From Protula sp. h YS-2021 (Eukaryota > Annelida > Polychaeta > Sabellida > Serpulidae): a DNA stretch of 64,000 nucleotides. Where the stretch lies: assembly GCA_949752745.1 (NCBI GenBank), contig OX457024.1, positions 107,681,787 through 107,745,786 on the forward strand, read 5' to 3'. Position numbers and translations under genes: made by a program. A model generated the notes under the pieces. It saw only the letters and a list, made by a program, of their open reading frames with translations, was not told where the DNA came from and did not search any database. Of this stretch, positions 6,101 through 37,500 are shown in pieces; position 1 is the stretch's first letter, and each line of letters begins with the position of its first letter.

Positions 6101-9100
6101 CGGCACACAGCAGTGAGGTGGGAGCTCCACCTGTCCAGCGAGCTGTCGAGGGTAACCATGGCGTCCTGGAGCTTCACAATCTCTCCGCTATGCAAGGCTG
6201 GTATCACAAGGTTCTCTATGAAAATGTCACTGCTGCATTTCTGAAAGGACGAAGTAAAATGTTGTACTCCCAAACAGCGTTAATTCTTGTGTTTGTGCAA
6301 AAACAAGTGTTAGAAGCTCTTAAAGATTGAAGATTTCCGGAACAAGATTGTCTGTGTCCACTGGTCACTGGAACGCGACATGTGCCAGGGAAACTCCGAT
6401 GAAGGCACAAGGATTAACACACCACTAAAACAACGCCGAGAAAAGCGACGAATCAGGATAATACCGTGGGGTAGGCACTTACCTCTCAATGGACGAGTCT
6501 CAGCACTTACCTCTCAATGGACGAGTCTCAGCACTTACCTCTCAGTGGGCGAGTCTTAGCACTTACTTCCGAGTAGACGAGTCCCAGCACTTACCCCCGA
6601 GTAGACCAGTCCCAGCACTTACCTCCCATAAGACGAGTCCCAGCACTTACGTCCGAGTAGACGAGTCCCAGCACTTACCTCCGAGTAGACGAGTCCCAGC
6701 ACTGACCTCCGAGTTGACGAGCCATAGCACTTACCCCCACCCACCAAGTAGACAAGTTCCAGCACTTATTCCCCGAGTAGACGAGTCCCAGCACTTACCC
6801 CCGAGTACACGAGTCCCAGCACTTACCCCCCCCCCCCCTCCCCCACCGGAATATGAGTACCAGCACTTACCTCCGAGTAGACGAGTCCCAGCGCTTTCAC
6901 GTAGAGCCCGCGGCGCTGATAGAAATTCAGCAGACTGGCGTACGTGCCGTACGTGCGCAGGTAGTACAGACACTCCTGCATGCACGTGCTTTCCAGCGCA
7001 TCGTCATCGTGCGCGCCGGGCACCTGCTCGAAAAACAGACCCGGATGTAAACAAAAACAATGACATGTGATGCCATTTTCGCCCATCACATTATTCAGTA
7101 CACGCTGATTGCGAAAGATCACGCTCTCACAGCCTTGAGACAATCCGTCGCCAATACGCCCCCCCCCCCCCCAGCCCGCCCCTCCCAACCCACCCCGACC
7201 CGCCAACATGCAACACACAGGAAATGACAATATCACACACACATCAAAAACATATCAAATGCCACCAGGAGAAATCAATAACCATTTCATTTTTACAAAG
7301 CGTTCAGACACATCCCCTCCTCGCCCCTCTCACTAATTTTCGCACCATCCTTCGAACATTCCTGCTTATCTGTCAATCCTGTGACACAAGATTTAATGGC
7401 ATCTTACTTGTGGTTCAGCCAGGAGATCTTTCACAGATTTCAGCTGTGTTAGAAGTCCAGCAGTCTGTAATGAGAAAGCAACCCGTTTATACGCCACTCC
7501 TCATCTGGTATACAAGAAAACGACTGCATGCGGAAACTTTATTACACAAGAAAACGACTGCATGCGGAAACGTTTCACGGTGTTTCTCGTCTTTCTTCTT
7601 TAAATGAATGAAATATTTAATAGGGTGCGCAAATCACAAGATACCCAGACTGTCAAATTCTCTCCTAGCACAGGAGCTTATATTTTATGGTATGGTGTAG
7701 ATTCAAGATCTTACGGTATGATGAAGAGCTCAGATTTTACGATATGGTGTAGATATTTAGATTTTACGGTATGGTGTAATACTTAGATTTTACGGCATGG
7801 TGTAGAGCTTAGATTTTAGGGTATGTTGTGCATCTCAGATTTTGCGGTATGGTGTACAGCTCCGATTTGACGGTATGGTGTAGAGCTTAGATTTTAAGGC
7901 ATGGTGTCCAGCTCAGATTTTACAGTATGGTGTACAGCCCAGATTTTACGATATGGTGTAGAGCTTAGATTTTACGGTATGGTGTACAGCCCAGATTTTA
8001 CGGTATGGTGTAGAGCTTAGATTTTACGGCATGGTGTACAGCTCAGATTTTACGATATGGTGTAGAGCTTAGATTTTACGGTATGGTGTACAGCCCAGAT
8101 TTTACGATATGGTGTAGAGCTTAGATTTTACGGTATGGTGTACAGCCCAGATTTTACGGTATGGTGTAGAGCTTAGATTTTACGGCATGGTGTACAGCTC
8201 AGATTTTACGATATGGTGTAGAGCTTAGATTTTACGGTATGGTGTACAGCTCAGATTTTACGATATGGTGTAGAGCTTAGATTTTACGGTATGGTGTACA
8301 GCCCAGATTTTACGGTATGGTGTAGAGCTTAGATTTTACGGCATGGTGTCCAGCTCAGATTTTACAGTATGGTGTACAGCTCAGATTTTACGGTATGGTG
8401 TAGAGCTTAGATTTTACGGTATGGTGTACAGCCCAGATTTTACGGTATGGTGTAGAGCTTAGATTTTACGGCATGGTGTAGAGCTTAGATTTTACGGTAT
8501 GGTGTATAGCTTAGATTTTTGTATAGTGTAGAGCTTAAGTTTTACGGTGTGGTGTAGAGCTTAGATTTTACGGTACGGTGTAGAGCTTAGATTTTACGGT
8601 ATAGTGTACAGTTCAGATTTTACGGTTTGTTGTGCAGCTCAGATTTTACGGTATGGTGTACAGCTCAAATTTTACGGTATGGTTTAAAGCTTAGATTTTA
8701 CGTCACGGTGTAGAGCTTAGATTTTACGGTATAGTGTATAGCTTAGATTTTACGGCTTTGTGTAGAGCTAAGATTTTTGCGGTATGGTGTAGAGCTTAGA
8801 TTTTACGATATGGTGTAGAGCTTAGATTTTACGATATGGTGTAGAGCTCAGATTTTGCGGTACGGTGTAGAGCTTAGATTTACGGTATGGTTAGAGCTTA
8901 GATTTTACGGTATAGTGTACAGCTCTGATTTTGCGGTATAGTGTACATCTCAGATTTTGCGGTATGGTGTAGAGCTCAGATTTTACGGTATGGCGTAGAG
9001 CTTTGCAACGATCACAGACATTTACTCGCAACTGAAGTAGCCAATTACCATGTCCACGGAAACGACGCTGTTTTCGAGAATTCCGAGAATGTCAGTTAAC

Positions 9101-12100
9101 ACCTTGGAGCCGCTCTGTGGTTGGTTCTTGTCTAGCGGAGCCTGAAACACCAATCATATAATCCATCACAAACCCTTCGTCAAAAACCAGAGATTCTTCT
9201 TGTTCCTTTTTTATCTTTGGTTGGTTTTTTTTTTTCAAGCAAACTATAGGCACATAACGAGAGTGGTATGCTTGGGGAGGTCCAGTAATATAGATTTAAA
9301 AAAAAAGAAAAAAAAGACCTTCTCCAGAAAAATATTGCGACCAGTTTCCGAAAGATGACAAATAGAACATTTTAGCATTTCTGCTGCGCATCACAAAGTT
9401 CCTTAGTTTATGGACAAAGATTAAAAAATTCGGTAAAATACGGAGTAAGATACGACAGATAAATGCCGGAAACTAGTTTATGAATTCTCCCTCTCCCCCT
9501 CTCCCCGTCCCTCCCCCACCCCTACGTTGTCACAGACGGGGCAGAACATCCAAACCTTCTTTTAGAAGTGCTCGACAATTCCCCTTATCCCCGCCCTCAA
9601 CCCCCCCCCCCCCCCCCCTCCTCCACTAATCTCCTCCAAGGTCTACTCCGAAATGCCGCGATACCTTGAGACATCTCGCGAACTTCTCCCTGGCCGCGGG
9701 CAGGTCACCGTAGCACAGAAGCGCCTTGCCCCAGGCCACCCACACCCCGGCCGCGTCAATGCCGCACTTAGTGGAGACGTCCTTGGCCAGCTCCCAGTGC
9801 TCGCTCTCAATCAGTTTATCCCGCAAACGCCTGTGGGGATTACCACGCACACTTCTGTACTGCTGTTAGCATTACCGTAATTTTTTTAAAACCCACGACT
9901 ATGTCTATGGATATGCAGTATTTAACTGAAAATTTGAACCGCTTGAAAGAAAATGAAGGCGCCAATAACAAACTTACGGGACAACGAAATGACAAATCAG
10001 CACCAACTATACCATGGTGGAGAGCCGAGGGATCGAAGACGGGAGTACGGGTGGGGGCTAGGGAAGGGGGGACGGGGGTAGGTGGGGTGGAATTACGTTC
10101 AATAAGAAACTGCTGAGACAAGGAAATGACACACCAGTACCAACTATACCGAGGGATCGGGGGGGGGGGGAGTGGGGGTTGAGGGGGAGGAGGTGAGTGC
10201 GAGGAGATGAGGAGGGGGGCTGGGAAGGAGTGTGGGGGAGGGGGGAGATGAGTGGGGACTAGGGAGGAGTGGAGGAGATGAGTGGGGACTGGGGAAGAGT
10301 GGGGGAGATGAGTGGGGATTAGGGAGGAGTGGGGGGAGATGAGGGGGGCTGGGGAGGAGTGGGGGGAGATGAGTGGGGACTGGGGAGGAGAGGGGGAAAT
10401 GAGTGGGGGCTGGAAGGAGAGGGGGAGATGAGCGGGACTGGGAAGGAGTGAGGGGAGATGAGTGGGGCTGGGGAGGAGTGGGGGGAGATGAGGGGGGGCC
10501 GGGAAGGAGTGGGGGAGACGAGTGGGGGCTGGGGGGGACTGGGGGTAGATGAGGGGTTGGGGGACGTGAGCTCTGACCTGAGCACGTCCATGCGTGTCAG
10601 CTGCTGGATGGAGGGAATGTAGGCCACGTTGCTGGCTACGAGCAGATCGACGATCTTCACCCTATCTAGATAGAGCTCGCACTTGCTGATTCCCGTGACG
10701 TCACCGATCCTGTCAAACTTGACCTTGGCGTTAAACAACAGGTTCTTCATCATGCTGTTAATGAATAAAACATGGCGCTTGATCATGGCACTGATTTGTG
10801 TTTCAAAAGAACATCTTTTAAATTAAAAACAGTCTATTCGAACAAGCATAAGACTAACCCGGGACCGCCTTAAAATTGTACAAATGCCATAATGCAGCAG
10901 TAATGATTGCTCTTTTATTTACATCTACCTGTTTAACATTTAAAGATGATCAATTTTACATTGTTCATCCCGAGAAAACGATCAGTTTTTATTGCACTTC
11001 AGACTTGACAAAAACGTATGTGCAAAGTGTCCCATCTCGGTAAGATCAAATTTTACCTCTCCCTAACGAAGCAATCGGCTCGTGAGCGACATACCTGATT
11101 ACTAGACCATAGTCCACTTCTGGGTTTTTCACCCCGGGAGCGATGGGCTGTAGATACGTGGAGATTTGATCACACATCTGCAGCAACACGTCGCCGCACT
11201 GCCTCGCGTCGCTGTGCAGATCCAGGATGGAGAGACACAAAGACGCGCTCGGCGCCTGGCGCGGAGTAAACAAAAATACAGGTGACATATCACGTGATTC
11301 ATCATGTCAACAAATAACAGACACGTGACATATCACGTGACACATCACGTCAACAAATAAACAAAACACAATGTGACTCATCATGTGACGCATGCCAACA
11401 AGCTTTTAAAGACACAGCACGTCAACAAGTAAACAAGACACTTGACATACCACGTGACGCATCACGTCCACAAGTAAACAAAACACACGTGGCGTATCAT
11501 GTGACGCATCCCGTCGACAAGAAAACAAACACGCGTGACACACCGTGACGCATCATGTGCAAAGCATAGGATCGGTACTTAAAAGTCAATACCAGTGCAA
11601 TCGTGTAGTGTAAAAGATAGCTTAACTTTTCAACCAAACTGTTTTAAAATACATAATATCTGCACCGTCTTAACCGCCCAACATGACCAAAAACGAAGAA
11701 AGCTCACCAAAAGAGTATTCGAAAACATCGTATTCTATTCGACAAAGCATGACGTGTTACATCCACTTCATTTGCCATAATTTTCTAAAAGGAATAGTTA
11801 TAATTTTACACACCACAATGTGGTTAACGGGTTGAGTTTATATACAAACATGATCGTAATAGAACTCCTCTCTGGTGTCGTCATTCAGGTTTTCGTCAAG
11901 GCTCAGAATGTACTGGTATTCCACGCCAGTACCCGATAAATGCACGGTACCCTGTCCTGTCAGCTCCAGGTTAGCCGAGCTACCCAGCCGTGACGCACCT
12001 GAAATAGAGACGCCCTATATTCTACCAATGACACCAGTGCTAGATTCCAACGCAGCCGCTAGCAAACCTCTGTAAGTCTCCTAGCCAAGATAATTGTTTT

Positions 12101-15100
12101 TATACACGGCTGAAAAAAGCTCACAAAATATCCAAAAAACATAATTTAATTTTCACTTTGTCAGCGCTGAATATTTAACACACTTGTGCCGCACAGCACT
12201 GCCAGTCTTTTACTCCTTCCAGCATGATGGCCACAAAGTTACCAGTGACTTGACGGTCACCTGCCCTGTGACGTCACGCCACGTGCTTTACCTAGGGACT
12301 CGGGAGAGTCACGTGTCCCTGACAGCGTCTGACGCATGCGCTCTACGCGCTCCTTGCTCGTCAACACCGCAGGCTTCGGCTAGAGGGCGGAAAAAAGAAG
12401 AAAAACTCACATTTTACTTTCGCCTTTAATAAAAAATTTAAAATTTATAAATTTTCAAGATGTGAGCCGATAAGCAACGAGTAGAGATAAAGACAGATAA
12501 GCGGTGTAATACACAAGTATCTCGCCTAAAAAATTGACTAATATCACCCACATATAAGCTTTTGTTGGGAAAAGAAAATCACTTTTCAATGTTGCCTTCA
12601 AAACTTAGGCAATATCTTCAATGAGGTACATTGTTCTGCAATGCGTTGAGAATGTCTGTGCCTGATTGAGGACAAGGCATTTGCAACATGACAACAACTC
12701 CTTTCAGAGATCATGAATAAGAACTGTTCGTTTATTGAATATAATCTTCTGACATACAGCAGTGAGAACAACTCTCCTTTTACTACTACGGATCTGCCGT
12801 GCTTAAGTAGCTCAAAGCCAGGTTAATCCTAGCGTGGTCAAAACCGCGCCTTCCCATGCTGCTGATTTGGTTAGGGGCCATCCATACAGTACGTACCGAC
12901 AAACGTGTCAATTTTTGACAACCCCCCACTCCCCCCCCCCCGTACCCAGTGTGTATGCAGTGACCTAGACCCCTTCCCCTGTACGCACGTACGCAATATA
13001 TTGTGCCATATTAAAAAAATATCAATTTATTTTAAAAACTAAAATGCCCATTAATCAGTGACCAAACTGAAAGTGTACATGCCAATATACATTAAAACGG
13101 AACCCTCCATCTCCCCCTTGTACGAAGTGCGTACGCACCGACCGTGACCCCCCCCCCCCCCCCCGCCCCTTCCCCCCTCCCCCTCTCTATGCGTACGTAC
13201 TTTATGGATGATTCCTTAGGGTTAGCTTACGCACTGTGAACCAGAAACACGAAGTTACTCTGCGCTGTTACGTCATTACGATATCGAGGATCGTACACTA
13301 CGCAAATCCTGTGAGTGTTCAAAATGCGGGCTTTACTCAGGATTAAGTTATCAATCCTCTATACTGGAGTGTGCCCGTTGGCGTGGGGGGTGGGGGCAGG
13401 GGTTTTGGGCGGGGTGGGGGGGGGGTACCTTGTAGCTCTGTTGGTAGCAGTCGTCACAGGCCCGCACGGAGCTGCCGCGCACACTTAGCGTCATTGTCGA
13501 ACATTCGCTGCAGACGACCCGACCGCAACGCCGGCAGTGGTGGCGTCGGTTGAACATGCTAAACCTCTCCACATTGCAGCACTGGAAATATAAACGCTAA
13601 ACCTCTCTACACCGAAGCACTGAAAATGTACGCACTTAAACCTCTCTACGTCGCAGCACTGAAAAAAAAAAAACAATTGCAAACCTCTCTAACGAAACAC
13701 TGCAAATATATGCGCTAAACCTCCCTATTTTGCAGCATAGAATATAAACACCAAACCTCTCCACATTGCATCACTGAAAACGTAAACGCTAACCCCCTCT
13801 AAATTATAGTACTTTCTAGTGACATCCCCAGCATTTAATTTATGAACGAGGCCTATTCTCACCATACAGACGCTGGCAGCTTGATCGGGGACCCAGTCAC
13901 TTCTGTCGGGCGCTTCCGCCGGCATGACGAAGACGGTTGGAAGCCCGTCCTTGACCTGCGCCTCCGGACTGCCCAGAGTGAACCTGGGAGAGCTCCTGGC
14001 CGGCACGCTGCTCGGGTACGGCTGTGGCGGCGTCGATGCCTTCACTCCTTGATTGGAAAGCTGCCCAAATGACGACACCTAAAAAAGGTTAGCAGAGGCA
14101 ATGAAAGATTGTTTCCAGCGGACGGCTAAAGGACAACGGTGTGAGATCTCCCGACCCCCCCCCCCCCCCAACACACAAACACGACATTTTAACCCCCTTG
14201 CCCCCCCCCCTCCCCACACACACACACACATACACACGACACTTTTACCCTCTTGCCTCCCCCTGAATACAAACCCATTGCCTCTCCCACCCCACCCCTC
14301 CCCCCTCCCAACACACACCTTGGGGATCCGGCTAGGGGAGGGTGTTGTTTTCGTCGCCACGGTCACGGCACCTGCCCGGCGGGTCTGCAGCGAGGACATG
14401 CTGCCCAGGGACCTGCTCGTCAGGATGCTCAGCCTCCCACCGCCAGCCACTTCCGGCTGTACGACCGGGAATTCCAGCGCCTTGCGGGCGTAAGTCACGA
14501 GCAACTGATTGCAGTCCGCCAAGTCCAAATCCAGGGCCACTCTCCCGCCAGACGAGTCACGTGACTGCAGCCTGGCGACAGGAAACGGGGCGCTGATTGG
14601 TCCGCTGTTGGTGGGAGTGTTTGGCTCGTTGCCAGACGAGTCACGTGAATGGAGCCTGGTGACAGGAAACGGGGCGCTGATTGGTCCGCTGTTGGTAGGA
14701 GTGTCTGGCTCGTTGCCACAGTCGTCCGCGGACGTGTGATGCTCCTTGTTAGGTTCATAGTTAGTTGGCGTGTTTGGTTCCGACGATTGATATTTAGCCA
14801 TTTCGTCAGTGATGCACCTCAATACCTTTCTCGAGAGATCCACCTGAAAACGGAAGCACGTGTTTTCTTGTTTTCTAATTTGATAAGACTGGATGCCCTT
14901 TGCCCGAGTACACTAAAATGTGGCGGAGAAATAAGGAGATTTCTATTTCAAAGGTTGTGCATGGTTTCCTCAAATATTCAGGCTTTAAAACTGATATAAA
15001 ACTTGAATCAACTGAAGTTTTCTATGTTGAAAATAATTAAAAATGTGATATTATATGTCATAAACTGAAACAGATATTGTTCGAGATGAATCTAAACAGT

Positions 15101-18100
15101 GTGTGTCTATATATATATATATATAGTATACATTGATTTCTTTATATTTTATTTTATTTATTTATTTATTTTGCTTTCACTCTGTCCACATAAATCCGCA
15201 TTTTAAGGTGATCCAGTGCTAAATTACTATCTCAAAATACAATAACAATATCCACCTGATTTCCGCGCACGCCTTTCTCACAGCGAAGTCAAATACAACT
15301 TCTTTTCATACTGTTGCGGACAAGGCTGACCCCTTCCCCCCCACCCCCCCCCCCCCCTCCCACCCCCATATCGGATCGTCCGCTTTCTGTAATACGACAA
15401 ATGAGTACATGCTCCTTCATACCCCCCCGCTCCCGGCATTACAAAATTTTCCACAATACAGCAAATAACACGTACCTCGAACCAGACCCGCCATTTTGTA
15501 TAATACAGCCAATAAGCACCTGTACCTTCCCACCCCGCCACCACTCATCCTCGCATCACACCCATGTGGTACAGTACATACCCCAACATACCCCAACCCC
15601 ACCAATCCCAGTATCACAACCGCCATGTGATATAAATACAAGAACGGGAAGGTACCTTCTTGCCCCAGTCCCCCCTCCCGCCCCCACCCCCAACATCCCA
15701 CATCACAACCGCCATGTGATATAAAACAAGAACGGGAAGGTACCTTCTTGCCCCAGTCCCCCCTCCCGCCCCCACCCCCAACATCCCACATCACAACCGC
15801 CATGTCATATAAATACAAGAACGGGAAGGTACCTTCATGCCCTCCCCCCTCCCCCGCCCCCACCCCCAACATCCCAGCATCACAACCGCCATGTGATATA
15901 AAACAAGAACGGGTACCTTCATGCCCCCCGCCCCCCTCCCGCCCCCACCCCCAACATCCCAGCATCACAACCGCCATGTCATATAAAACAAGAACGGGTA
16001 CCTTCATGCCCTCCCCCCTCCCCCGCCCCCACCCCCAACATCCCAGCATCACAACCGCCATGTGATATAAAACAAGAACGGGTACCTTCATGCCCCCCGC
16101 CCCCCTCCCGCCCCCACCCCCAACATCCCAGCATCACAACCGCCATGTGATATAAAACAAGAACGGGTACCTCCATGCCCCTCGCCCCCGCCCCCACCCC
16201 CAACATCCCAGCATCACAACCGCCATGTGATACAATAATACAAGAACGGGTACCTTCATGACCTCCCCCCTCCCGCCCCCACCCCCAACATCCCAGCATC
16301 ACAACCGCCATGTCATATAAAACAAGAACGGGTACCTTCATGCACCCCCCCCCCCCCACCCCCAACATCCCAGCATCACAACCGCCATGTCATATAAATA
16401 CAAGAACGGGAAGGTACCTTCATGCCCCCCTCCCCCCTCCCGCCACCACCCCCAACATCCCAGCATCACAACCGCCATGTGATATAAATACAAGAACGGG
16501 TACCTTCATGCCCTCCCCCCTCCCCCCCCCACCCCCAACATCCCAGCATCACAACCGCCATGTGATATAAATACAAGAACGGGTACCTTCATGCCCCCGC
16601 CCCCCCCCCCACCCCCAACATCCCAGCATCACAACCACCATGTGATATAAATACAAGAACGGGTACCTTCATGCCCCCCCCCAACCATCCCACATCACAA
16701 CCGCCATGTGATATAAATACAAGAACGGGTACCTTCATGCCCCCCGCCCCCTCCCCACCCCCAACATCCCAGCATCACAACCACCATGTGATATAAATAC
16801 AAGAACGGGTACCTCCATGCCCCTCGCCCCTCCCCCGCCCCCACCCCCAACCATCCCAGCATCACAACCGCCATGTGATATAACACAAGAACGGGTACCT
16901 TCATATTCATAATCAGCTGTTCCAGCAGCAGAACGGGTTCCGCGATCACGTGGTCATAATCTGCTTGCATATTTTGCGGCAAACAGCCCAATGCCTTACA
17001 GCCTATATCCAGCAGCATCAAGCGCTTCATCTCGCCGTCCGCGAGAACTCCACTGAGTTTCCGCATCATAAATTCAGTCAGAATCGAAGTATTTTGTTTG
17101 TTTGCGAACTGGTCGATAAGGCTATAGCACAGCGTTTTACACTCTGCACTACTTTTTGCGTACACCTTCTCAAGGATTTTCATGGCTTCTGTGATTTCTT
17201 TCGGACTACTTTTCTCCAAGAGAAATTTTATATGCGCTTCATCCACGAGCTGGCTGAACTCGTGATGCCCGTGAATCTCAATCCACTTCCGAGTTAGGTC
17301 ATGGGCGCTGACCTTGAGCAAAAACTCGAGAATGACATCGGGAGACGATCTGGAAAGTTCTGCCACTTTCTGCCACATTTTGAGCTGCATTAATACTGAA
17401 ACAGTGTGTTGTCTGATGCAGTCGGATATCCCCTCCATCCCCGCGTCGTCTTGACTCGTCTCCTCAATAAAGAACTGGTTCGAATTTGACTCGTAATGTA
17501 ATTCAATTGTCGGGCCAGTATTCAGCTGTGTATCAACGCACTGGCATATCTGCAGTACACATAAACAAAACAACGCACTGGCATATCTGCAGTACACATA
17601 AACAAAACAACGCACTGGCATATCTGCAGTACACATAAACAAAACAACGCACTGGCATATCTGCAGTACACATAAACAAAACAACGCACTGGCATATCTG
17701 CAGTACACATAAACAAAAACAACGCACTGGAATATCTGCAGTACCCTTAAACAAAAACAAACAGTTTAACTAATCACTGAAATATGTATGTCACTGGCAA
17801 AATCTCAAATCAGGCAGTTTACAAAGTGCCTGAAAATTTCACGTAGTTTGTAAACTGTTCGGTTGGGCCAACCATCTTTTAAATTGCCTAAGTTCCAGGC
17901 ACTTTTAGGCAAACTGCCAAATGTTGGAGCCTAAAAGAACCAGGTAGTTTACAAAGATGCTGAAAATGTGAACTGCTTGATTTGAAAGTCTGCCGGTAAC
18001 ACACATACACAGTTCGTGAGTGAGCAAGCCTGTTCGCGAACAGTCTGACCAAGAATAAGCAAATTGTTCCAAATAAACTGATAATTTGAACAACTGCGTA

Positions 18101-19029
18101 AAACAGCAGTGATCTGGAAATACTCTAAATCGTTCGTTTCTATATTTTTTTAAAAGAGTTACAAACTATGCACCAAATTATGCACCAATCTTTGGTTAAA
18201 CTATACCTGCATATAAACTTGCATAACATCCAGTTCTTCCAATATGGCCGCTCTCATGACGTCATTTTCACCAATGGCGTGCAGATACTCCTGCAGGTGC
18301 CTGACACATGTGAGCGCATCCCACAATTCCAAGCAGCCAATAAGCAGACGACTTCTCGCATTGCCCTCGCACATACCCATGAGAAGTTTCCACACTAAGG
18401 CACCGCCCTCAGGTGCTTGAGAGCTTTCCTCCGCCCCTTCATGCAACTCAGTTTCACTGCCCTTGCTTTGCCTCACGTGATCCAAAATGACACCCTCTGC
18501 CGCCCTGTCTTTAAGGAACACCACCTCGGGATGGGTGCAATTTATCAAAGCAGGGCAGCCTAATAGCAAGTCGCTGAGAACACGCCACTGCTTGCCGCCG
18601 ATGAGGCTGCGTAATACGTCACAGATGACGTCACGAAATAAGGCGGAGTTAGGCGAAGCTAGACACAATACTGTGCTGTTAGGAATACTGTGTTTGTCCC
18701 AAATATCTTCCAAAAATTGAGTATCACATTGGTTTGAGCTGCTGATGGTTGAACACAAGGGTAACACGTGACTGGTCACGTGTGTCCACAAAGCCGGACA
18801 CGTGCTCTCCGTCACGCTTCTGACCTTGGCAAGGTCCGAAGCAGACGACGGAATGCTCGAGTTGAACAGAATAGCAAGGTTGGCGAGGACATGGGACTGG
18901 CTGTGCAGGTAGGACTCTACAGCCGGCGTGAGGCTGTAGGCTGAAAAATATATGCAACTAGAGCGGTTGTTTCCACATCAATGAGTACAGGTAGTTCATT
19001 GTAAAATACACTCATTTCTATTACAACAA

Positions 19030-19068
<39 letters not shown>

Positions 19069-22000: not shown

Positions 22001-25000
22001 CATAACAAGTGTAACATGCCGTGACATTCATTTGGTGTTTTAGAGTTTGGTTGGGCTTCTGTTAAAAAAAAACATTCTGAATAAAAAGCAGAAATTTATG
22101 TTCAGCGACGGTAAATTTAAAGATTATCCCATCCAAGCACATAACTGGGGGGAGGGGGGAGGGAGGTAGCCAGGTGGGGGTGGGACTGTACCTGGGAAAT
22201 CTCGTGCCCCTCGAGCCCCAACCGAACAAACAAAAATGCGAGCCCCGAACCGAACATTTCCGCGAACCTTAGTTATAACCCTACACTAGGCGAAGGTACC
22301 TGACTAGACCAAGCTGTCCCACGCGGTAACAGTACTTCTGTAGCAGAAAGCTAAATCTCTCGTCGCTTACGCCTCTCATGAAACGTCTCAGCTCGTGCGG
22401 GCAATTCTTCAACAAGGCCAAGAAAATGTGTGGTTATCATCACGAATAATTTATCGAATACTTAATTTTTGGTGGTTCTTAATGAAGGAAATTTGTCCCA
22501 GGTTTTTCTTTCAAGACTTCGAGGGATGAAGCAAGTATGGGTGCACCCCCCCCCCCCTCCTCCAGCGCACTCACCGGGCGCACCTCCCCCCCCCCCCCCC
22601 CACCCGGCAATGATCTTATTTGGAGTCCCCGGCCTTGCTAACGAATGGGGCACACCCCCCCAATCCCGCACTTACCTAACAAAGGGCGTAAATGAGTGGG
22701 GCGTACCCTCCCCCCTTCCTCCCGCACTCACCCAATTCCCTGGCCTTGATCACGAATGGAACACACTCTCCCCTCTCCCGGTCCTTACTCGGGACCCCGG
22801 CCTTGTTATCGAATGGGGCGCACCACCCCGTCCCCCCCCCCCCCGCAACCCCCGCAACCCCCGCAATGACCTTACTCTGGGCCCCGCCTTGTTAACAAAT
22901 GGGCTACTTTCCCCTTTTATTTTTTATGTTTAACGAGTATTCACATCCGCTTATAAACAGGTCAAATTGACAAACTAAGTCTGTATGCTATTGACGCATG
23001 GATACTGATCCAGGCCCGGTGGTCTCACCTTGACTATAAAGCACACGGTATGCAACAGCAACAGCTGCAGTAGGTTGCCATGGAAACACAGCTTGTCAAT
23101 GCCAGTGGTTAATATTGACAAATCAGCGTCGCGGAGCCTCGTTGTGAGCCTGGTCACGTGAGCATACCGTGGACCGGAGACAAAACACTGCACGTCATCT
23201 CTGGTGATTTTCCACGGATGCGCATGTCTTTTAGAAGAGCATTCTGGAAAAGAAACAGAGTACATAAAATGTGACTCTACGTGACCTTTTCACCTTTTGT
23301 AAATAAAGAAACAATTTTTGTTCATTTTATTCAACGACAATTTTTTTTTTCAAAAATGTACAATAAGTAATAAAATACAATATGTAAATATGTAGACAAG
23401 TGAAAGTATACCTCTCAGCTCGTGCAACCATAGCAACAGAATACCATGGATACTCGTAAATCCAGAGATCACACTGCGCGGTCTTTTCTCATTTAAGACG
23501 ACGAGACCTTGGTTATCTGAGAGCGGCGGCGTGTCTGAAAGGACAGTGTGCAAAATGCACAGAAATGAATGCCACCAGCACACAATGACATGTTTGATCT
23601 GACCTCTACGGAAACCCAACGATACATTACAGCACTTGTCAACTGATCTGATCAAGTTTTCTTATTATCTGATTTTGTTGATTTTGACTTCCAGTTCACA
23701 AAATGTATTTGTCCCGTTGTAAGAACTGACACTTATTCTGATGCTCTTGTCAATCTAAAATATTTGGCTTAATGAGCGTCATGGTCATAAAGTACCACTG
23801 GATTCAGAGCACAACACTGCCCCTCCCCCCCCCCCCTCCACACACACCGTTAAAAAAAAAATAGATAACAGCAAAAAGTATTTGGTTTCTTTTTTGGATA
23901 GGTTGGATGATGGTGTATTCCATGGTCTGTTTCCCCCTCTCCGGAAGGGCGTGCTGTTAACTTTCCTGGTGTGCATCAGAGCATATTGTGACTGTTCCTG
24001 GTGTGGATTGGAATAGAATGGTTTACTATGACTGTACATGGTGTGGATCGGACTAGATGGGGGGCGTATTGTAACCCGTACGTGGTGTAGACTGTAGCAG
24101 AAGAGCATACTGTGACCGTACCTGGTGCAGACAGGAGGAGAGGAGAGCGCATTGTGACCGTACCTGGTGTGGACTGGAACGGAAGCTTCGGGCAGCAGTT
24201 GTGTAGCAGAACATCCGTCAGCTCTATCCCAAGCTCACTGACAACCTTCTCTATTCTAGAAGTAACATACATTTTGAATGTTTTTTTTCACAGCAGTGAA
24301 ATACTCTCTTACATAACAGCTCCTACGTGCAGTAATTTTTCTCACAGTTTTCTTCTGTTATAATCTTGTGTTGCATGGATAATCATTCTATGGGATTTCT
24401 GGGCTGTGACATATTTCCGATTTCAATTTGTGCAAAAGTTTAAACGACTGTATAAAATAGAAAGCCTTTACAATTGAAGGGATCCAGCACCACTGGCTTC
24501 AACCATAAACAGCTGGGTTTTTGAAAATTTGAAGTCTTACTTAGTTGGCTCTGTTTCATGTTCAAACACCATTTTCCCTATTGTGGACGTGGCGCTGACA
24601 CTCATCTGCTCAAAATACTCCATCTGACTCATCCATTCTGCCAAAGGTCAAACAAAGGTCAGGCAAAGGTCAGGCAAAGGCTAAAGCAACAGAAGCATTT
24701 AAACAGTAAAATCTGAACAACGCAACGAAAACATCGTGTTGCCTAAATTTTGAAAATCCAATTATTTTAATATGCCAAATTTCTTCAATAAAATTACACC
24801 GAAATTAACTGAGAGATGCGATAATAGACAATAACTTGCGTTCACTGTCCGCCAAAACCTCCCGCACACGATGATCAAAGAATAACCAGATTTATTTACT
24901 GTTTTGAGTTTTTTTGTTTTTTTTTTGCACCGCCTCACCTTTGCTCTGGCCGGCTATTTCGGCGCTGAGACAGGACAGGGTTTTCATGTACTCATACAGT

Positions 25001-28000
25001 ACTTTGGTGTAATTCACACTGTCTTCGTTTGTTTCGTTTAAATTCCTGCAAACGAAAAAAAAAGTTCCCTCACAATCGCTCCCTTTCTTCATTCCTAATG
25101 GCCAATTTAATTCTATTCTATTCTGTCAATTCACATAATTTCGGGGGACTCCATTTTGCTCTGATTCTTCACTTGAGTTCCCCGACATTACATAAAACAG
25201 TTTGTGCAGCAAAAGCACCCGCTTTCGCAATCAACAGTGCCCACGCACACGCAGATACACCGTCACTGGCTTACGTCACAACGACGGCCGCTGCCACATG
25301 ACGTGACGTCACTTTTTTGCCGTTTCAACTCGACCAATCGAAACGAACCTTCAGCAGACTGCTGTTCTTAAGTATTTCATCAATCTATTGGAAATAAATA
25401 TTTCAACAAGCCCAGGCTTTTAAATTAAATGTCTGTCTATACTGATTCAGATATGGCTTATCCCGACTCAAGCCTTCCATCCAACCTTTTATCCTGACTT
25501 TTCAGGTTTACAGCCACCAGCTTAGTATTTTGAACATGACGTCATCATGTATTCGTATGACGTCATCACGTATACATATGACGTCATCACGTATACACAC
25601 CGTGCGATGAACTAATATACGCAGACGCCATGACGTGTCATAATAAACCCACCCGAGCGTGTGGACAGATCCGAAACCCCTGCCGTAGGCTGGGTAGCAC
25701 TGGTGGCACCAGCCTGACAGGCGGGTGCGTAAACAGTGCGCAATGCTAAGGGAGGATTTCTGAGATCAGTCCAAACAAGATTGTCGGCATTATTTTTATT
25801 TCATGACTTCTTGTGCACTTATATTATCTTATAAATTCTGTTCTATTTTTTTCTGCGGCTCAGTAACACTATGGCGATGTCAAGTACACATTTACAGTAC
25901 TTGATACTGAAAGCGCGGGAAATATGGCTGTCTTTATCTACTCGTCATAAACACTACATAAATACTATTGTTGTATTTGTAAATAAACAGCTCCTGACTG
26001 GTCGAGAGATGCATAACAAATATGACTGTTACATGGTTCAGCGTGACGTGTTAGGTCAATAAAACGTTTTAAAAAATATTACTAAATACAGCCATATACA
26101 TTCTTTTTACCTTAAAAATGTGTGGTTTCGTTCAACATCCGACATCTTTAGAATGTTTGCGAATTGTTCAGAATTCCATAACTCTTTTTAAACTACGCTT
26201 TGAATATCCCACCAAACTAATAAATTAAAATAAAATAACCAACCGATTTACAAGCACGAAGCAATGTTTACAACCCATGAACAGTATAGACAGTACTTTT
26301 TAGCGAGTACTGAAGTACTCAAGGCCATGACGAAAACCAACGACGTAGTGGGCGTCAAGTACTGGATGATTGACAACATGGCACGAAATCGTTGATTTAA
26401 GCTCCTGCAGCTATAAAATTGCAACAAAGCAATTATGATACAGTTAGGAGGGTGACATGCAGTTTTATTACTGCGAGTTGGAATGTTACACGAGGCTTGT
26501 CCGCCCTCGGGTGAACAAAAACTACAAGTCACTCGCCCAACTATGCCACAATTGTATACTGTTTCCTTCGTACGCGAACTGGCAACCAGACAAATAAACA
26601 AACCGTGCGATGTACTGTGCGAGGCCACGCTTGTTGCCATCTCTGGCCAGAAACAGCACGAGTTGTTTCAACGCCTGCCTCACACCCGCCCTCGCCGGGG
26701 GATTCCCGTCCGTGGTGAGGCGGCGTCTCGATGTACGTGCTTCTTGTTTCTCAGTCAGATCCAATAATTCTGCACGTGCCTGGAAGCACAATGATAGGAA
26801 AAAGCAAACTGTCGGGACGTTGGTCAGAACAGAGGAGTTGTCACACGGGGGCCACGGTTTTAGAGATCGTGCCAAAACAATTCCACCTTTCTCGGGAACA
26901 AAGCAGTCACATTTTTATGATAAATTTACAATTGTTGCGACTATAGTTCACCTTCTGATAACTTAAAACTAGCAACGGTTTTTTATTCATTTTTTGTTTG
27001 TTTTTTTTTCGTTCATTAAATTTAATTATTTATTGTTATAACGTTACGTTTTTCTTAAAATGCAACCATAATCATGAACAGAGATTTAAAGATTCACACA
27101 GATGTCTCTGTTTTGCTCTAGGGTCCTTGATTAGGTGCAGCCACACAGTCACACACACACACACACAGCCTGGTTGCAGCCACACACCTTGCTGAGTAAA
27201 TCCTGCAGCTCCTCATCGAAGGCAGTCTCCATCCTGAAGATATCTGCGCGCAGACTCAGCACCCCGTGTGTAAGCAGGCTATTCGCACCCGACACCAGCG
27301 TTGCAAGCCCGCCTTTCCCTCTCTCAAACCCGCCGTCAATACTCTCCCCTGACTGGCGTCTATTTCGACATAGACTCAGCTGGCCCATGACAGCTGCCAT
27401 TCCATGGAGAAATCCCACAATGCCGCTAACCGGAAGTGGCTGTGAATTTCCCGCGCTTTTGCTCTCCACTCTCTCGTCTGCCACGAGACCTTTTCCGGTG
27501 GCACTCCCGGCAGTTTTACGCATTTCCAACGGCACCAGTTTCAATGCCTGGTCGATCAAGCTATTGGACGAATCAATCGTATTGGAACTGGAACACGCCA
27601 GATCTAAAACAACCATAGCGGGGACCAGCCTTGCGTTGATACTCTCCACAATGCTACTGCACGCAGAGTGTGGCGACACAGACAGAGCTGGCTGGAGACT
27701 GAGACCCAGCAGCTGGTCCACAGCACTCGTCACCGACACGGAAGCTAAGCCCCTCGCCGCGGTGTTCGCCACATTCGCCAGTGCTGTCTTACCAAACGCC
27801 GCCAGCCCGCCTCGCTTCTGTTCTTCTGAACAACAACAAAAAAACGGAATAAGACAAAACACGGTAATTGCTGCACTTAAACAATCTTGCAAGGGACCTT
27901 TACGTTGACGCTTGGTTCTATTTTATTTCACAACTGTTCAGTTACTCGTTCATGTATTGTTTTTTTTCAGCGAATCAGAAAGCAGCTTACTTTTAGCTTT

Positions 28001-31000
28001 GGTCAGTGGCTTGGTTACAGAGCTCGCATCATGTGACTGGATTTTACTGATAGCGGACCGGAAGTGCTCGGCAAATAGTACTTCCGCTTCCTGTTGGCTG
28101 TCCTCCAGGCTGAACAGCTGCGAAAAAAGTCAAACAGCTATAAGGTAACCAAACAGCTCCAAACGTAACCAAACAGCTCTAGTAAAAGCTGTAAACGTAA
28201 CAAAATCTCCAGAAAAAAATAACAAAATTCTCGGACTTGCAGTACATTGTCATTTGTTCGAGAAAATACAACAGGCAAACTTATATAAACAACCAAGCAA
28301 CAGAAATGTAAAAACAAACGTCAGTGTCCTCAAGGACAAAACCCAAAGACGAGTCCAAAATGGTAATCTTCACAGTGAGGTCCCGTAAAGTAGGCATCCT
28401 TATCTCTTTGGTATTTATTTCTTTTCCTGTAACCTTTAATCCTCTATCGACATGCCGCATGTACCACGCAGTATAAGGTAATTACCTTGACAACCTGCGT
28501 TGCCTGGGCGATTCTACCCCTTCGTAAACACATGGCGAGTAGCGTCTCCTTATCGGCCAGCATGCGGCTCACAATGTCGTCATTCCGCGTGAGAACTCCC
28601 CTCACGTACGCCCTCTACAACACAAAAACACCTCACGTACGCCCTCTGCAACACAAGAACACCTCACGTACCCCCCCCCCCCCCCACACACACACAACAT
28701 AAAGCACCCCTCCCATAGGCCCTCTGCAACACAGGAACACCTCACGTACCCCCCCCCCCCCCAACACAAAGCACCCCTCACGCACGCCGTCTGCAACACA
28801 AAAACACCTCACGCACGCCGTCTGCAACACAAAAACACCTCACGTACGTCCTCTGCAACACAAAAACACCTCACGTACGTCCTCTACAACACAAAAACAC
28901 CCCCCGTACGCCCTCTACAACACAAGAACACCTCACGTACGCCATCTACAACACAAAAACACCTCACGTACGCCATCTACAGCACAAAAACACCTCACGT
29001 ACGCCCACTACAACACAAAAACACCTCACGTACGCCATCTACAACACAAAAACACCTCACGTACGCCCACTACAACACAAAAACACCTCACGTACGCCAT
29101 CTACAACACAAAAACACCTCACGTACGCCCTCTACAATACAAAAACACCTCAAGTACGCCATCTACAACACAAAAACACCTCACGTACGCCCTCTACAGC
29201 ACAAAAGCACCCCTCACGTACGCCGTCTGCAACACAAAAACACCTCATGTACGTCCTCTACAGCACAAAAACACCTCACGTACGCCATCTACAACACAAG
29301 AACACCCCTCACGTGCACCCTCTACAACACAAAAGCACCTCACGTACGCCGTCTGCAACTAAAAAACACCTCACGTACGTCCTCTACAACACAAAGACAC
29401 CGTTCACGTACGCCCTCTACAATACAAAAACACCCTACAATACAAAAACACTGGCTGTAACCCCATTGTCTGCCTACCTTGCCTCGTCGCTAGAGGCTGC
29501 ATTTCCCGTGGTCAGTTTTTTTACCACGTGTATTTACTTGCATTTTTTGTTTATCTTGCCTCGTCGCTAGACACTGCGTTTCCTGTGGTCCGTTTTTTGA
29601 CCACGTGTTATTTGTTTACGTTTTGTGTTTACCTTACCTCGCCGCTAGAGCCTTCGTTTCCTGTGGTCAGTTTTTTTTTTTTTTGACCACGTGTTATTTG
29701 TTTACATTGTGTGTTTACCTTGCCTCGCCGCGTGGGGCACTGTTTCTTTTTGGTGGGGTTTTTTGACCACGTGTTATTTGTTTACATTTTATGTTTACCT
29801 TGCCTCGCCTCTTGAGGCGGCGTTTCCTGCGCCGGGACAGCGAGCCCTTGGAGTCGTCCGTGGTCGCTGCCTGGCTGTCGCTCGTGTGTCCAGACAGCGA
29901 GTCCGCCATAGCTGTGAACGAAAACCAAAACACCTAACATACCCCTCCTCTTGTGAGACCTCCGACACAGAGGGAGCACCCGACGTACCAACGCGAAAAT
30001 AGATGCGCGGTTGACAGTGGGTCACATCTCCCGTTACCAGCATAGCCGCACCACACCCCCCCCCCCCATAAATTCCATGGCGCCCACGCATTTGCACTGG
30101 CTGTAACCCCTACCATCCGCGGAACCAGCCCTGAATTTTTATAACTAGCCAGTTCCTAACGAAAAAACGCAAGAATAAATAAAGCTCCTTAATTAATGGT
30201 TATTATTAACTAATTATATGTAGATCTATATATAAACAGCAGAAATATATAGAAATCAATATGTAAATCCATGCACATTTATTTTAAAAGAATGGAATTT
30301 TATGGATCACATAATTTCAATAAATTATCAAATTGCGGAACATATTTCATTACAATACTGAAATTTACGAGATTACCTACGCCAGTATATGCCCAGGCAA
30401 GCAAAGCGAGGCTTCAAAACCTTTCAATATTCAGTATGACTCAGCAAGATCAAGGAGAAATCGACTTATTGGGACATTTTTTGCAAGAAATAAACCCTTC
30501 TTATTTTACTTCCCTTTTCAATTCTTGTGCGTGCCGTGTGCAAAGTTGTCTTCTTAGACGGAAAATTTGAAAGTTAACTTCTTGCAAAAACGTCTGTTTT
30601 CTCAATCCTCAATCCGACCGAGTACTCGCACCAAATCGATCCCAACTATTTATTACTCACTACAGCCCTACATGCATAGATATAGAAGCACCCAAGAGCC
30701 AATAAGATCGATCGCAGAGTGACCGCAGTTATTCACATTCCACACAATACAAATGAATTAATACACATCTTAATTGGAGCATATTTAGAAACAATTCATC
30801 TCGAGGAATTTCACGACGGACCGACCGCAGGGTACCACGAATGACCATACCCACTGGACACCATTTGACCCACAGGTAAAAGGGTAATAATTTCCCCTCA
30901 CGTCTTTTGAGGGGAAATTTACCATATTGTGTTACTCAGTACGATAGCTACATTTTACATACGACAACATGGTGTTTATACTAAATATTTCTAGACTAAC

Positions 31001-31493
31001 CAGACGAACCAGTCGAGTTTTTTTATTATTTTTGTCAGCGGGGATAGTTGCGACTAGCTGCCAGCAAAAGTTTATTGGTCGACTGATCTCAGATTTAAGA
31101 TTAAAAGCCACTTACCAATTCGCACAAGTGGCGTACTGTGAGGCTTAAATTTAAATTCAATCTATTTATATCAAGAAAACCACAACAGTATAATAAAGTG
31201 AAGAAAAAAAATCGCTGTGGGTTAAAACACACACACGTATTACGTACGCTGGCGCTTCTTGCGTTTCTCACACGTTTGCGGAATATCACTTTCATCGCTT
31301 GAAGACCAATCTAAAAAAACAGAAAGACACGTGACCACTTCCACCGACATTGAAGCTCCATGTGGAAACTCTGAGACCCAGCGCCCTTCATTTGGCAGGA
31401 AAGACCTGACGCGAAAAGACGTAAAGCGAAACATAAACATATGTTTATGACTTGCCAAACGTTATATCTTTTGTTTGTTTTTGTTTTGTTTTT

Positions 31494-31524
<31 letters not shown>

Positions 31525-34500
31525 TTTTGTTTTTTTTTTAAATTTCAACATTACGTTTTCTCGTCGTTAAAGGTACACATCCCATGTCCAGCAGGTTTTT
31601 CAAAAACTACGGTGAGGTGTAATTTAAATCCATGTCTCCATTTCTGTGAAACTTCCTTTTGCGGTGCAAGCAGTAAGGTGTCCAAATACATCCCGTAAGC
31701 TCAAAGATGACAGAATAACACCGTTTTGTTTAAAATAAGAATTCTGAAGTAAACAAAAATAAAACATACATTTTTTCATAGGCTTTTCCAGAAACGATAA
31801 ATGCAAGGTCGCAGAAATCGAATGAAAGTTAGCCGAGAAAGGAAAATTCTTTCTTTTGGCAAGCGGAGAGTAAACAATTTAATTCATATTCGGTTTTTGT
31901 TTTAATGTCGGCTGTTCAGTGTTGAATAGCGCACCGAAATTTTAAGACGTTATGAGATATATATCTATATATAATTTTTGTTTTTCATTTCTAAGGCAAT
32001 AATACCAATAATAATACAGGTTCAATAACTAAAATAATGAAGAAGAAATGAAGAAGTTTTGATTTTGTGATGTTCGACTTGTCGTTCCGCTACTCTGGAA
32101 TAGCCCACCAAAAATATCTGGTTTCTTATTTTCTTCAGAATTCATATTTTGGACAACACAGTGTTATAACTGAAATACCAGCAAGAAGTTTAAGCTGTTC
32201 GCAAGATGACGTTAAATTAATACTTGGGAATGTTTTCTTTATCTGACTAAACGGCTGAATGCGACGAAAAAGCGACTACAAGCCACATTATATATGTATG
32301 GTCATTCTTATGCAAATACTCTGGTCACGTTATGCAACTGTGGTCATTTTATGAAAATAACCTTATCATTTTATGCAAATAATTACGTAAATTTCATTGA
32401 AAATGATTTGATAACTTTTTACAAATTACTGATCTAACCCCATGAACTGGGCCTAGATATAGCAAAATAATTTTTTTAATATTTTTTTTTTTTCATATGT
32501 AATGCACATAGTATATGCACATACTATACTTATTTCAAAAATCAACTGCGTGGTGGGGAGTTACATGGGAGGTATAATATATATATTAATGAACGATTGC
32601 ATACAATGACGCTCTCTCTGCCCACATAAATACCTTGTGATCCCAATCTGTGTATCTACCCATTTTTTGTCCGGGTTAAACAACCGTATATTTCAACTTT
32701 TGCAGATATTTAAAATTATAAATAACTACTTCTTTCAATTTCTTTAGGCGTCTGCTGCAGCCGTTTCTCATAACTGACGACGCATGGTTTTGTATAAATT
32801 GATATACATGTTTATAATGAAATCTCCTACGTACTAAGCTACGGGCAGTACACAATGCAGTCAGGAAAAAACCCAAATGAACAATGCATGGTTTTATGTA
32901 ACAAAAAGACTTCTATTGAACTGCCAAAGTAGAAAAAACAAAACGATAAGAACTTTTTTTACCCTGTTTAAAAATCGATAAGAAAACTGTCAAATATTTT
33001 TTTTTAAAATATTTTCCACTTGCATTTGCTTTGGTTCTGAGTATAAGAAAATTTGGCAACGTTTCCTCTTTGATTTCTTTCATTTTCTACGTGGTCAGTC
33101 TGCAGTCGAAACGCCAAAATACTTGCGCATTTTATTCGAAAAAAAAACAAGTGTGATCAGGCGTACGACAGCAACTTGTATCGCTTGTATCTCGAACGGA
33201 CCAAATATGAATTTTACAACAATATCAAAGCGTCGTGTTTAAAGATGGGAAAAAACTATGAAATTCTATTCGCACCGCATATATTAGTAGATATAGATTT
33301 GTTTATATGTAAATAAGCCCGTAAAAAAGAACTAGATGATGCATTCAGCTGTGATGGTGCGAACAGCCAATCTGAAGTCAGGGGTGCACATAAGACCTTC
33401 GCATTTCGCCATGGCGAAGGTGAAATCCATTTGGCGAAGGTGAACAGATTCAACTTTGCCAATTTGGCGAAGGTGAATTTTAGGCAAAATTATTATAATA
33501 AAAGCAAAGTATGTTTTGTTTTTGATTTAGGTGAACGTGAAATGAATGCACAGCTATCCTATTGACAAACGCAAACAGTGACGACGCATATCAATTTATA
33601 CTTAATAACAGATCACCATACCTGCAATAAACATTAAATTACAGTTTTAGTAAGAGGGTTAATCTGGCGAAGGTGAATTCGATTTGGCGAAGGTGAAATG
33701 AACGTCCTTCGCCAAATTGGCGGAGGTAAAATATTCCTTATGTGTACCACTGTGAAGTGCTTCTATTAGCAATAACAACGAGCCTCGTTTCCACTTACCG
33801 ATGGCGTCATCATCAGAGCTGGCCTCTTCAGTGAGTCTTGCACTGCTCAGGATTTTACTGAACTGGAACGGTACGAAGTCATGTGACACGAGCTGGAAGC
33901 ACCACAGCGCCTCACTTATATGCTGCGTCAGTGTCACAGCCCGCATTTTCGCCTCTTTCTCCGGGATACTGCACTGCATTGGTGGTGGAGTCTTTCGGCT
34001 CACCGCCCCATCGGGAACCGCGATTTTCACATTGTGACCTTTAGCATTGGAGGACGAAAGCGTGGTGACGTCCGTAGCATCAAGGCACTGCTTGAGCAGG
34101 ATCAAGGCATCCCTCATGAAATACTCATTACAGAGGAAGCCACCTCTCTCCCTGACGCCCGCCAAGTTGCTCGCTACACTGGAACCACTAAAATGCCCAC
34201 TGCGCGATTCCCTGGCCTCTTTTTCAGACAACCGCTGTTCTTTGGGCTCGTTTTCGGGCTCAGCATCCTTGTTTACATTATTAGTTTTACCTGAAGATTT
34301 CTCGTCGTACATAGTGGCACCAAATAAATCATGGTTTACTTTCTTCTCTGTCCGTCGTAATTCTGTTCCATTTGCATCAGTCCCAAAGGCGGGTGTTTCA
34401 AACAGAGGGGGTGTAATGGGCGAAACAGGGGTCCTACAGACAGGTGTCTCCACACCCAAGCAGCTCTCTCCATACAGAGTCAAGCTAAAGTCGGCGCCAT

Positions 34501-37500
34501 CTTCGCCGCTGTCTGACTGCGCATGCGTATTGGCTATGTCCTCTCCCCGTAGAAATAAGAGCGAGAATAAATTCTCCAACATCTCAATACGAAACGGAAA
34601 GCTTTCCAAGGCCATGACGCTGGCTTTAACTTGCTCCAAGAGCTTGATCACGTGCTCGTTGTAGCGGGTCTGCAGTTCTTCCATTTCAGCTGCTGACGCC
34701 GTTGACGTGGCAACGCTGACGCTGCGAGACATCCGGGTACTTTCTGGCGGCTGTCGGCTATGTGACGTTCTTGACACCTGCCGTGGCTTGCTTCCTGAAA
34801 CAACGGCCGTAGATACTTCATCGTTGGACGAGGACACATGGGTACCTCGAGTTCTCAAAGTATCGCATTACTAAGAAACACAAACATAGCAAAGGAGGTA
34901 ACCCCGATACAACCGTCCCCATAGTTCAAGGGCAGCTGTACATTTTTCCCTTTTATGATTTCATATTTATTTATCTTTGCTAAATCTTCGCTGCAAAATT
35001 ATGCCCAACAATCATTCGTAGGCTGCAGTACATGCTGCTATACACACCACTGACACGTGTTGCCAGAGAAGCTATTCACACAATCATATGTGTTATTTGT
35101 GCTATCACTCATGTGCCATCACTCGTAATCCACGTGTGTTACCCAGCAATCACTCACTGAGCAGTAACACGTGTTACCTTCACTGACTCACGCCACGTTA
35201 CCCGAGCTGTCGTTCACACGTGTCCCCTGCGCTGTCACTCATGCTAACACATGTCGCTCCCTGCATCATCACTCATGCTGCCACACATGTGCCTTGTGAT
35301 ATCACTTATGCTGACAGACGTGTTCTCTGTGCTATCACTCCTGCTGACACATGTGTTCACCTTCCTATCACTCATGCTGAGACATGTGCTCCATGTGCTA
35401 TCACTCCTGCTGACACATGTGCTCCATGTGCTATCACCCACATTAACACATGTTCCATGCGCTATCACTCATGCTGACAGACGTATTCCCAGTACTAGCA
35501 CCCACACGGTAACACGCGTTACCTGCACACATGTTACCATCATTTATATGTCGGCACGTGCTGCCTCCCTTACCGTCCATGCGTCACACGTTACCTATCG
35601 CTTTATCTGCCACACGCGCTACTTACACTATCGCTCACGCTGTACCACGTGTTACCTGAGCAATCATCCAGCTGTAACATGCGTTACCTGAGCGCTCATC
35701 CACGCTGTTACACGTATTACCTGATTCTCCCAAACACGTTGTCCGCGTGTTACCTGCACCACCGCGCGACACGTGTTACCTCATCCAAGCCGTCCTCTTC
35801 CACGTTGCTACACGTGTTACCTGAGCTCTCAGCCACGCCTTTGCACGTGTTACCTCAGCCCTCATCCACGTTGTTACACGTGTTGCCCCAGTCCTCATAC
35901 ACACTGTTGCACGTGTTACCCGAGCCATCATCCACGCTGTTACACTGTTACCTCAGCCCTCATCCACAGTTACATGTGTTATCTCAGCCCTCATCCACTG
36001 TTACACGTGTTACCTGAGCCATCTTCCACGCTCTCCGCCCGTAATGTCGTCAACGACGCGGAATCGCCCGCCGAGTAGCTCCCGCTCTGCAGCGACAGTG
36101 ACGTCAGTGGGCTCCAGCTGAGCATCTCCATGGAAGCAGTGAGCGCCTCGGTGAAGCATCGTACAGCGCTGAAGGCCTTGAATAATTCCGCGCTGTTCTC
36201 TTCTGGCAGACAGAGTCCATGTGCCGCGCACTCTGCAAGATTGTCATCAAATACACTTCTTCTGATTGAAATAATTCAAGCCTCGAGCTGCTGATAAACA
36301 GTGCTCCCTTTATAGAAAAGATAAGGCGTAAGATCAGCGGTATGACACACTATCTCAAGTTTATGCCACATGAGAAGACCAGATTCCACATGAGAAAACC
36401 ACTGATTTCACATGAGAAAACCACAGATTCCACATGAGAAAACCACAGATTCCACATGAGAAAACCACAGATTCAAGTTAAGTTTGATACAAGCTAACTC
36501 AAAACTGATCAACACTGAATGCATTAACACGTTATAAAGATATACCGCGTCTAACCTCGTTCTAGCTGCTGAAGGAACTGGAGCACCTGGGAAGGGTCAA
36601 GGTCGCCCAGCGTAGAGCACCTGTGTAGAGCCTGCAGGGCCGAGTACAGCTGTACGCCCGTGTACAACTTGCTGTGTACAGCGTACTGGAATGCCTCCGA
36701 CTCCGCCGGCAAAGTGCGTCTGAAACGCCATTGGCTCAAAGATTCAAGGGCAACTTTTTCGCAAGCACGAATGAACCGTGGGATTACTGTATACTGAAGG
36801 TGTCAAACTGACTCCAGACTCTAGCAGCACTCCCCCAACAGTATAGCATTGTAAAATGAACAACATTACTACAGGAAGGATTCGATCGTGCTCACAAATT
36901 TCAAACGACCTTGACTTATTCGTATTTTTAACACGAATGCACTTCATTATATATTTCTATTTCTTTTCCAGACAATTTTATGTTATTGAGGTCAACTGGA
37001 CAAAAAGGCCTAGGGAATTTATGGGCAGCTCTAGCCTGGTTAACGTAAGATGCCGGCATCACTTACCGAGCTACGTCACAGCACGTGTCAAGAAGCCTGG
37101 CCTTGACCTTCAGTCTCTCACACGCGTCTTTCAGGTCAGACTGTACCTATTTTAAAAAAAATGGTGGCCATTTTCTGGGTCATATAGTTATCAAACACAA
37201 TTCTACATTTGTCAAAAGGTGAGTTTATGAGTTATATCATGAAAATATATACTTACATCTTACTGAGCTCAGCTAGTGTCACATTCAACAACTAACCATA
37301 GAATGACAGACAGACAAACAGAGAGTCAGCGAGAGAGGGAGAGAGAAAAAAAAGATATATATATATATATTGTAAAGAATAACGTAACTGTGAAAGCATG
37401 TTTGAGAACTCGTGCCTATAATTAGGCACGGCATGCCTTGGGCGGACCGGGTTGACTATGACTATATATATATATATATATATATGTGTAGATACCCTGG

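Follow-up and report, generated by a model that had tools for sequence, protein, structure and literature searches.

In the 64,000-nucleotide stretch of DNA analysed here (the window), a ZFYVE26 (spastizin) gene on the minus strand carries minisatellites at eight of its exon edges, and each minisatellite repeats the splice junction beside which it sits. Such arrays resemble mirages, the minisatellites across exon-intron borders that have been described in lancelets. Kinesin and myosin genes elsewhere in this genome also carry them, and there their frequency can be compared with that of arrays in intron interiors. We consider it probable, at roughly three chances in four, that the arrays are mirages derived from random short tandem duplications, which were tolerated across junctions and not aimed at splice sites.

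Arrays at the exon edges of ZFYVE26

The ZFYVE26 gene extends from about 38.4 to 3.0 kb of the window (3002-38418, minus strand), with 39 exons modelled. Its identity is supported by the Pfam family TPR_ZFYVE26, a sequence match to PDB entry 8yad_C (human ZFYVE26) and the presence of full-length orthologs among database proteins. The model was built with a gene finder that uses splice sites and codon usage, its edges were corrected by homology and the exon phases were inspected. Absent from it are the 5′ end and whatever exons may lie from 33.8 to 29.9 kb, and the terminal exon is incomplete. The phases agree across all eight array-bearing edges.

Five donors and three acceptors seed the arrays, all on the minus strand. 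At each edge the unit consists of 6-31 exon bases that can be aligned to a copy, the splice site and adjoining intron, and all eight arrays extend intronward. Among the donors, the 33-bp array at 36014/36013 (35636-36032) includes 19 exon bases, the ~80-bp array at 29799 (29475-29826) includes 31, the 42-bp array at 24164 (24064-24178) includes 16, the 66-86-bp array at 16899 (15591-16904) includes 6 and the 28-bp array at 6871 (6475-6895) includes 25. Among the acceptors, the 31-bp array at 28614 (28600-29451) includes 23 exon bases, the 37-bp array at 17549 (17534-17756), with near-perfect copies, includes 16, and the 38-bp array at 13581 (13558-13801), which belongs to the exon of the FYVE zinc finger, includes 21. 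The intron at 29798-28615 goes furthest in this respect: the rows reported by Tandem Repeats Finder (TRF) for its donor and acceptor arrays cover 1118 of 1184 bp (~94%).

TRF detects an array at all eight edges, and the listed row crosses the junction in seven. At donor 6871 the row (6475-6834) ends 37 bp short of the junction, and a G-rich insertion separates the junction copy. The preliminary description of this DNA had named eight such edges in one gene and had described units made of exon edge, splice site and intron that run intronward; both statements hold on re-inspection. We also scanned the edges with a 24-base window across the junction, in which a tandem copy was defined as at least 18 of 24 matches within 220 bp of intron. 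Nine of the 78 modelled edges had such a copy: the eight named above, with 2 to 5 copies each, and donor 6050, with a single 18/24 match.

At 16899, 6871, 17549 and 13581 the copy nearest the exon aligns without gaps across the junction with six or seven orthologs. These are four of the seven junction rows displayed, which together cover the eight edges; the other three are poorly conserved.

Other repeats in the gene differ from this pattern. Short-unit arrays at 24642-24680 and 5034-5383 (TRF coordinates) contain no exon bases; they sit 5 and 7 bases ahead of two acceptors, those of the exons that start at 24637 and 5027, respectively. An intronic minisatellite of 26 bp at 7674-9003, with about 51 copies, touches none of the modelled exon edges. 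Within the 31-bp edge array of acceptor 28614 (28600-29451), the units have an acceptor followed within a few bases by a donor-like GT, and the gene finder drew a string of micro-exons there.

Exon edges and intron interiors in kinesin and myosin genes

Kinesin motors and myosin heads of the same genome served as replication genes. Their selection relied on protein family and on compactly clustered matches, and it preceded any view of the repeats. As anchors, 102 of the 139 kinesin matches and 35 of the 87 myosin matches were used; widely spaced ones were among those left out. The loci (given below with L numbers) comprise 24 kinesin, nine myosin and five single kinesin loci. Their anchors have 274 boundaries, from which four without a site were dropped, followed by two of the remaining 270 edges as low in complexity, leaving 268. 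A tandem copy of its own junction was found in the intron at 14 of these 268 edges (8 donors and 6 acceptors). Two of the copies are single 18/24 matches that may be due to chance (L037 and L064), and 12 edges remain after their removal. The match in L052 is also a single 18/24 match, yet TRF detects its 153-bp unit. The genes were chosen regardless of repeats, and their 14 edges show that such arrays are not peculiar to ZFYVE26.

Inspection of individual loci revealed donor arrays in L033 (23 bp), L038 (30 bp) and L055 (92 bp), and acceptor arrays in L041 (74 bp, about 11 copies) and L048 (34 bp). The donor array in L057 has a first offset of 34 bp and 31 copies, and one intron of L041 has arrays at both ends. 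Two more border arrays, at donor 4233 of L038 and donor 4031 of L041, were recognized by eye; they belong to exons without anchors and stand outside the 14. The gene finder had placed six edges inside arrays (in L033, L038, L041, L046, L048 and L055); these were repositioned manually on the evidence of protein homology, with the arrays already known, and four of these loci (L033, L041, L048 and L055) contribute matches to the count. For the L055 donor, the neighbouring site 4088 entered the first edge count and 4005 the statistics. In the myosin locus L058, an exon is duplicated in tandem (2128-2281 and 2408-2561) with near-identical translations of 51 residues, and the two copies are possibly mutually exclusive exons.

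As a control we used the share of intronic points that lie in the terminal units of arrays. This control is fair because the terminal unit is the one part of an array in which a junction can fall. The share is 3.15% (5′) and 3.17% (3′) in the intron interiors of the kinesin and myosin genes (85,464 bp), and 4.6% and 4.6% in the ZFYVE26 introns (22,080 bp). Interior points with any tandem copy nearby amount to 13.3% and 26.7% in the two sets, respectively. The 14 kinesin and myosin edges compare with 8.7 expected (P = 0.06), or with 9.9 when the control is matched for GC content (P = 0.13). The median bootstrap ratio is 1.63 (0.94-2.35), and 1.44 (0.87-2.08) with GC matching. A cruder interior rate, the median unit multiplied by the number of runs, comes to 6.0% for each set and would leave no excess in the kinesin and myosin genes.

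The positions of array ends give a similar picture. After correction for intron length, the density of TRF array boundaries in the kinesin and myosin genes is 0.75/kb from 60 to 5 bp into the exon, compared with 0.19-0.72/kb from 20 bp inward in the intron. In ZFYVE26 the corresponding densities are 1.67/kb and 0.47-1.60/kb. Junctions behave much like ordinary intronic points. A strong direction of duplication to junctions was rejected, since edge counts, interior rates and boundary density lie near the intron-interior values. It had been suggested in the preliminary description that duplication starts preferentially at junctions, an idea that would fall if arrays showed no genome-wide excess there. 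We find no clear support for it in the edge counts given above. The sampled kinesin and myosin genes come close to showing no excess, while their bootstrap intervals leave room for a mild one, up to about twofold.

Structure and origin of the copied junctions

We compared 22 border arrays, which consist of the eight in ZFYVE26, 12 of the 14 kinesin and myosin matches and the two recognized by eye. They include 6-58 exon bases, their first offset lies between 23 and 161 bp, and they keep no constant register to the splice site. The offset for donor 6871 is listed as 72, although the TRF period is 28, and the alignment of the L041 donor spans more than one unit in the offset list. First offsets are divisible by three in eight of the 22 arrays, about the third expected by chance, and inner copies would therefore usually shift the reading frame. 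The consensus windows of the 22 arrays all differ, and each resembles its own exon edge. Arrays that lie near an exon and contain none of its bases also occur, at the L046 donor, at acceptor 3654 of L038 and at 5027 and 10578 of the window. Of 195 copies, 166 retain an intact splice dinucleotide, and a purge of the copied splice sites was rejected on this count.

These features are consistent with a simple history. A random short tandem duplication would have one breakpoint in the exon edge and the other in the intron. Such an event would damage neither the frame nor the splice site next to the exon, and would therefore be nearly neutral and tolerated. Slippage or unequal exchange may then expand the array into the intron, and the intron would lengthen with copies of the edge of its own exon. 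Splicing probably uses the exon-proximal copy, presumably by exon definition, as its homology to orthologs suggests. Tolerance, in the sense that one good site always remains, was among the options raised in the preliminary description, and it fits both the data in general and the gap-free alignment of the exon-proximal copies. The frequency of edge arrays in this genome would then reflect introns that are rich in minisatellites, and not a strong attraction to splice sites.

The observations that weigh most against random duplication concern the frequency of arrays at junctions. In ZFYVE26, whose window was picked for being striking, the nine matches among 78 edges compare with 3.6 expected (P = 0.011), or 4.3 with GC matching (P = 0.030). 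The two gene sets pooled give 23 of 346 against 12.2 (P = 0.004), or 14.1 with GC matching (P = 0.019). In a profile uncorrected for intron length, the nearest array edges are denser within 60 bp of junctions in both gene sets. Array boundaries in ZFYVE26 reach 1.3-2.1/kb within 60 bp either side of exon edges, compared with 0.5-1.6/kb deeper. A process linked to transcription or splicing that directs duplication mildly, about 1.5-2-fold, to exon edges could account for these values, and we regard such a bias as doubtful. Junction-directed duplication in the fuller sense, in which transcription-linked pausing, R-loops or spliceosome-related breaks start the duplication at splice sites, would draw on the same values and seems to us unlikely. 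It is opposed by the kinesin and myosin genes, which alone show little excess, by breakpoints that keep no register to the splice site and by the arrays that adjoin an exon yet exclude it.

A different view is that extra splice sites are kept by selection, for redundancy or for regulated alternative splicing. In its favour, the splice dinucleotides are mismatched at 31 of 390 positions (8.0%), compared with 12.9% on the exon side and 12.0% on the intron side (Fisher P = 0.007); here the dinucleotide was scored against that of its own junction and the other positions against the array consensus, and the row for the L041 donor is shifted by a single base. The AG of acceptors (52 copies) has mismatch rates of 0.06 and 0.04, lower than those of its immediate neighbours (0.10-0.19), but several other acceptor positions are equally low. 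At donors (132 copies) the GT, at 0.06 and 0.11, is similar to positions +3 to +6 (0.07-0.09). With first offsets in multiples of three only at chance level, a selected function appears quite improbable. Still less probable is that the arrays are traces of new introns gained by tandem duplication, although a border duplication in the potato RdRp gene did produce a new intron (PMC4974935) and intron gain was proposed for mirages in the lancelet globin paper (PMC3087553). The predicted protein has no added segment at the four well-aligned junctions, and the units carry one junction instead of both ends of an intron. Finally, tandem repeats are hard to assemble, which raises the question of an assembly or sequencing artefact in the one assembly analysed (863 Mb in 218 contigs, with the window on a contig of 114 Mb). 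We consider this extremely improbable, as the copies differ by ~12% outside the dinucleotide and arrays of like structure with different units lie at unlinked loci on several chromosome-size contigs. Random duplication tolerated across junctions is thus the explanation that we favour.

Host lineage, known systems and meaning

The host gene is that of a lophotrochozoan outside Mollusca, as judged from protein similarity and a tree. In database comparisons, the C-terminal part of the ZFYVE26 protein is nearest to Lingula anatina (47%) and to Owenia fusiformis (48%, covering 67% of the query), with 41% for Lottia and 39% for Branchiostoma. Raw identities in the alignment are close to each other (Owenia 48.0%, Lingula 46.5%, Asterias 44.0%, Lottia 43.3% and Branchiostoma 43.3%), and the placement therefore relies on the tree together with the lack of a near match. 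Thirteen proteins were placed in a maximum-likelihood tree with midpoint rooting only, in which the window protein joins Lingula, Owenia and four molluscs (support 99/99). The molluscs form a group of their own (100/99) that excludes the window protein, which is also separate from Branchiostoma and has a fairly long branch. Branchiostoma was rejected as the host on this tree position and the lack of a near match. A PDB search with the N-terminal exons of ZFYVE26 and an ortholog search with one divergent exon returned nothing useful.

Within the coding sequence, an in-frame tandem duplication of 84 bp lies inside a ZFYVE26 exon (14547-14718), where a segment of 28 residues is repeated with a 94% match. 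The annotated ZFYVE26 protein of the sea urchin Lytechinus pictus (P0021) repeats a segment of 25 residues that ends at the junction position of the window exon 11998-11850; the repeat looks like a duplicated exon edge that entered the annotation as coding sequence. Elsewhere in the window, all on the minus strand, are an exon of an amiloride-sensitive sodium channel (ASC) gene at 61415-61933, a reverse-transcriptase-like frame recognized by eye at 48231-49175 and a retroelement RNase H frame at 50479-50841. An Rfam scan gave no matches.

By their sequence structure, the edge arrays are mirages, a known kind of element in a new lineage. The lancelet minisatellites of this name cross exon-intron borders in Adh3, the globins BflGb6 and BflGb9, TnC and PGBD5; there, splicing is reported to be regular, and many copies, though not all, carry AG or GT (PMC3087553; PMC3902484). 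The parallel with amphioxus drawn in the preliminary description is thus correct. As in lancelets, the repeat unit spans the border, both 5′ and 3′ borders are duplicated and many but not all copies keep AG or GT. The cases differ in host and in that the frequency here is measured against intron interiors. In lancelets, regular splicing was reported from RT-PCR, and instability of array length, between haplotypes or somatically, is a further trait of mirages, whereas the present arrays are known from the genomic sequence of one assembly and from protein homology. Border mirages outside lancelets were not among the matches listed in a search of openly licensed literature, which is weak evidence of absence.

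Other systems share single features with these arrays. In the potato RdRp study, which follows the Rogers model, a duplication across an intron-exon boundary created a new spliced intron (PMC4974935). The duplication crosses the boundary there as it does here, whereas the multi-copy arrays here, to the extent that homology of the protein can tell, stay within introns that already exist. A human interferon-induced transcript (6-16/IFI6) reportedly contains a minisatellite that supplies multiple splice donor sites; donors are repeated as in our arrays, and there they reportedly serve the transcript. Introner-type dispersed introns are repeats related to splice sites. They place one sequence family at many introns, whereas the sequences compared here, limited to the 22 arrays, all differ.

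Arrays at ~5% of the kinesin and myosin exon edges in a lophotrochozoan contrast with a phenomenon otherwise reported, in the papers cited above, from a few lancelet genes. This suggests that amplification of exon edges may be a routine route of intron growth wherever minisatellites abound. If duplication were mildly directed to exon edges after all, it would continually feed the growth of introns across the genome and supply spare splice sites that could allow introns to slide or new ones to arise. The arrays also represent a natural experiment, in which near-identical splice sites stand in a row and the exon-proximal one, according to protein homology, must win. Such an outcome among near-identical sites would favour exon definition, and not simply the strength of a site, as the basis of the choice.

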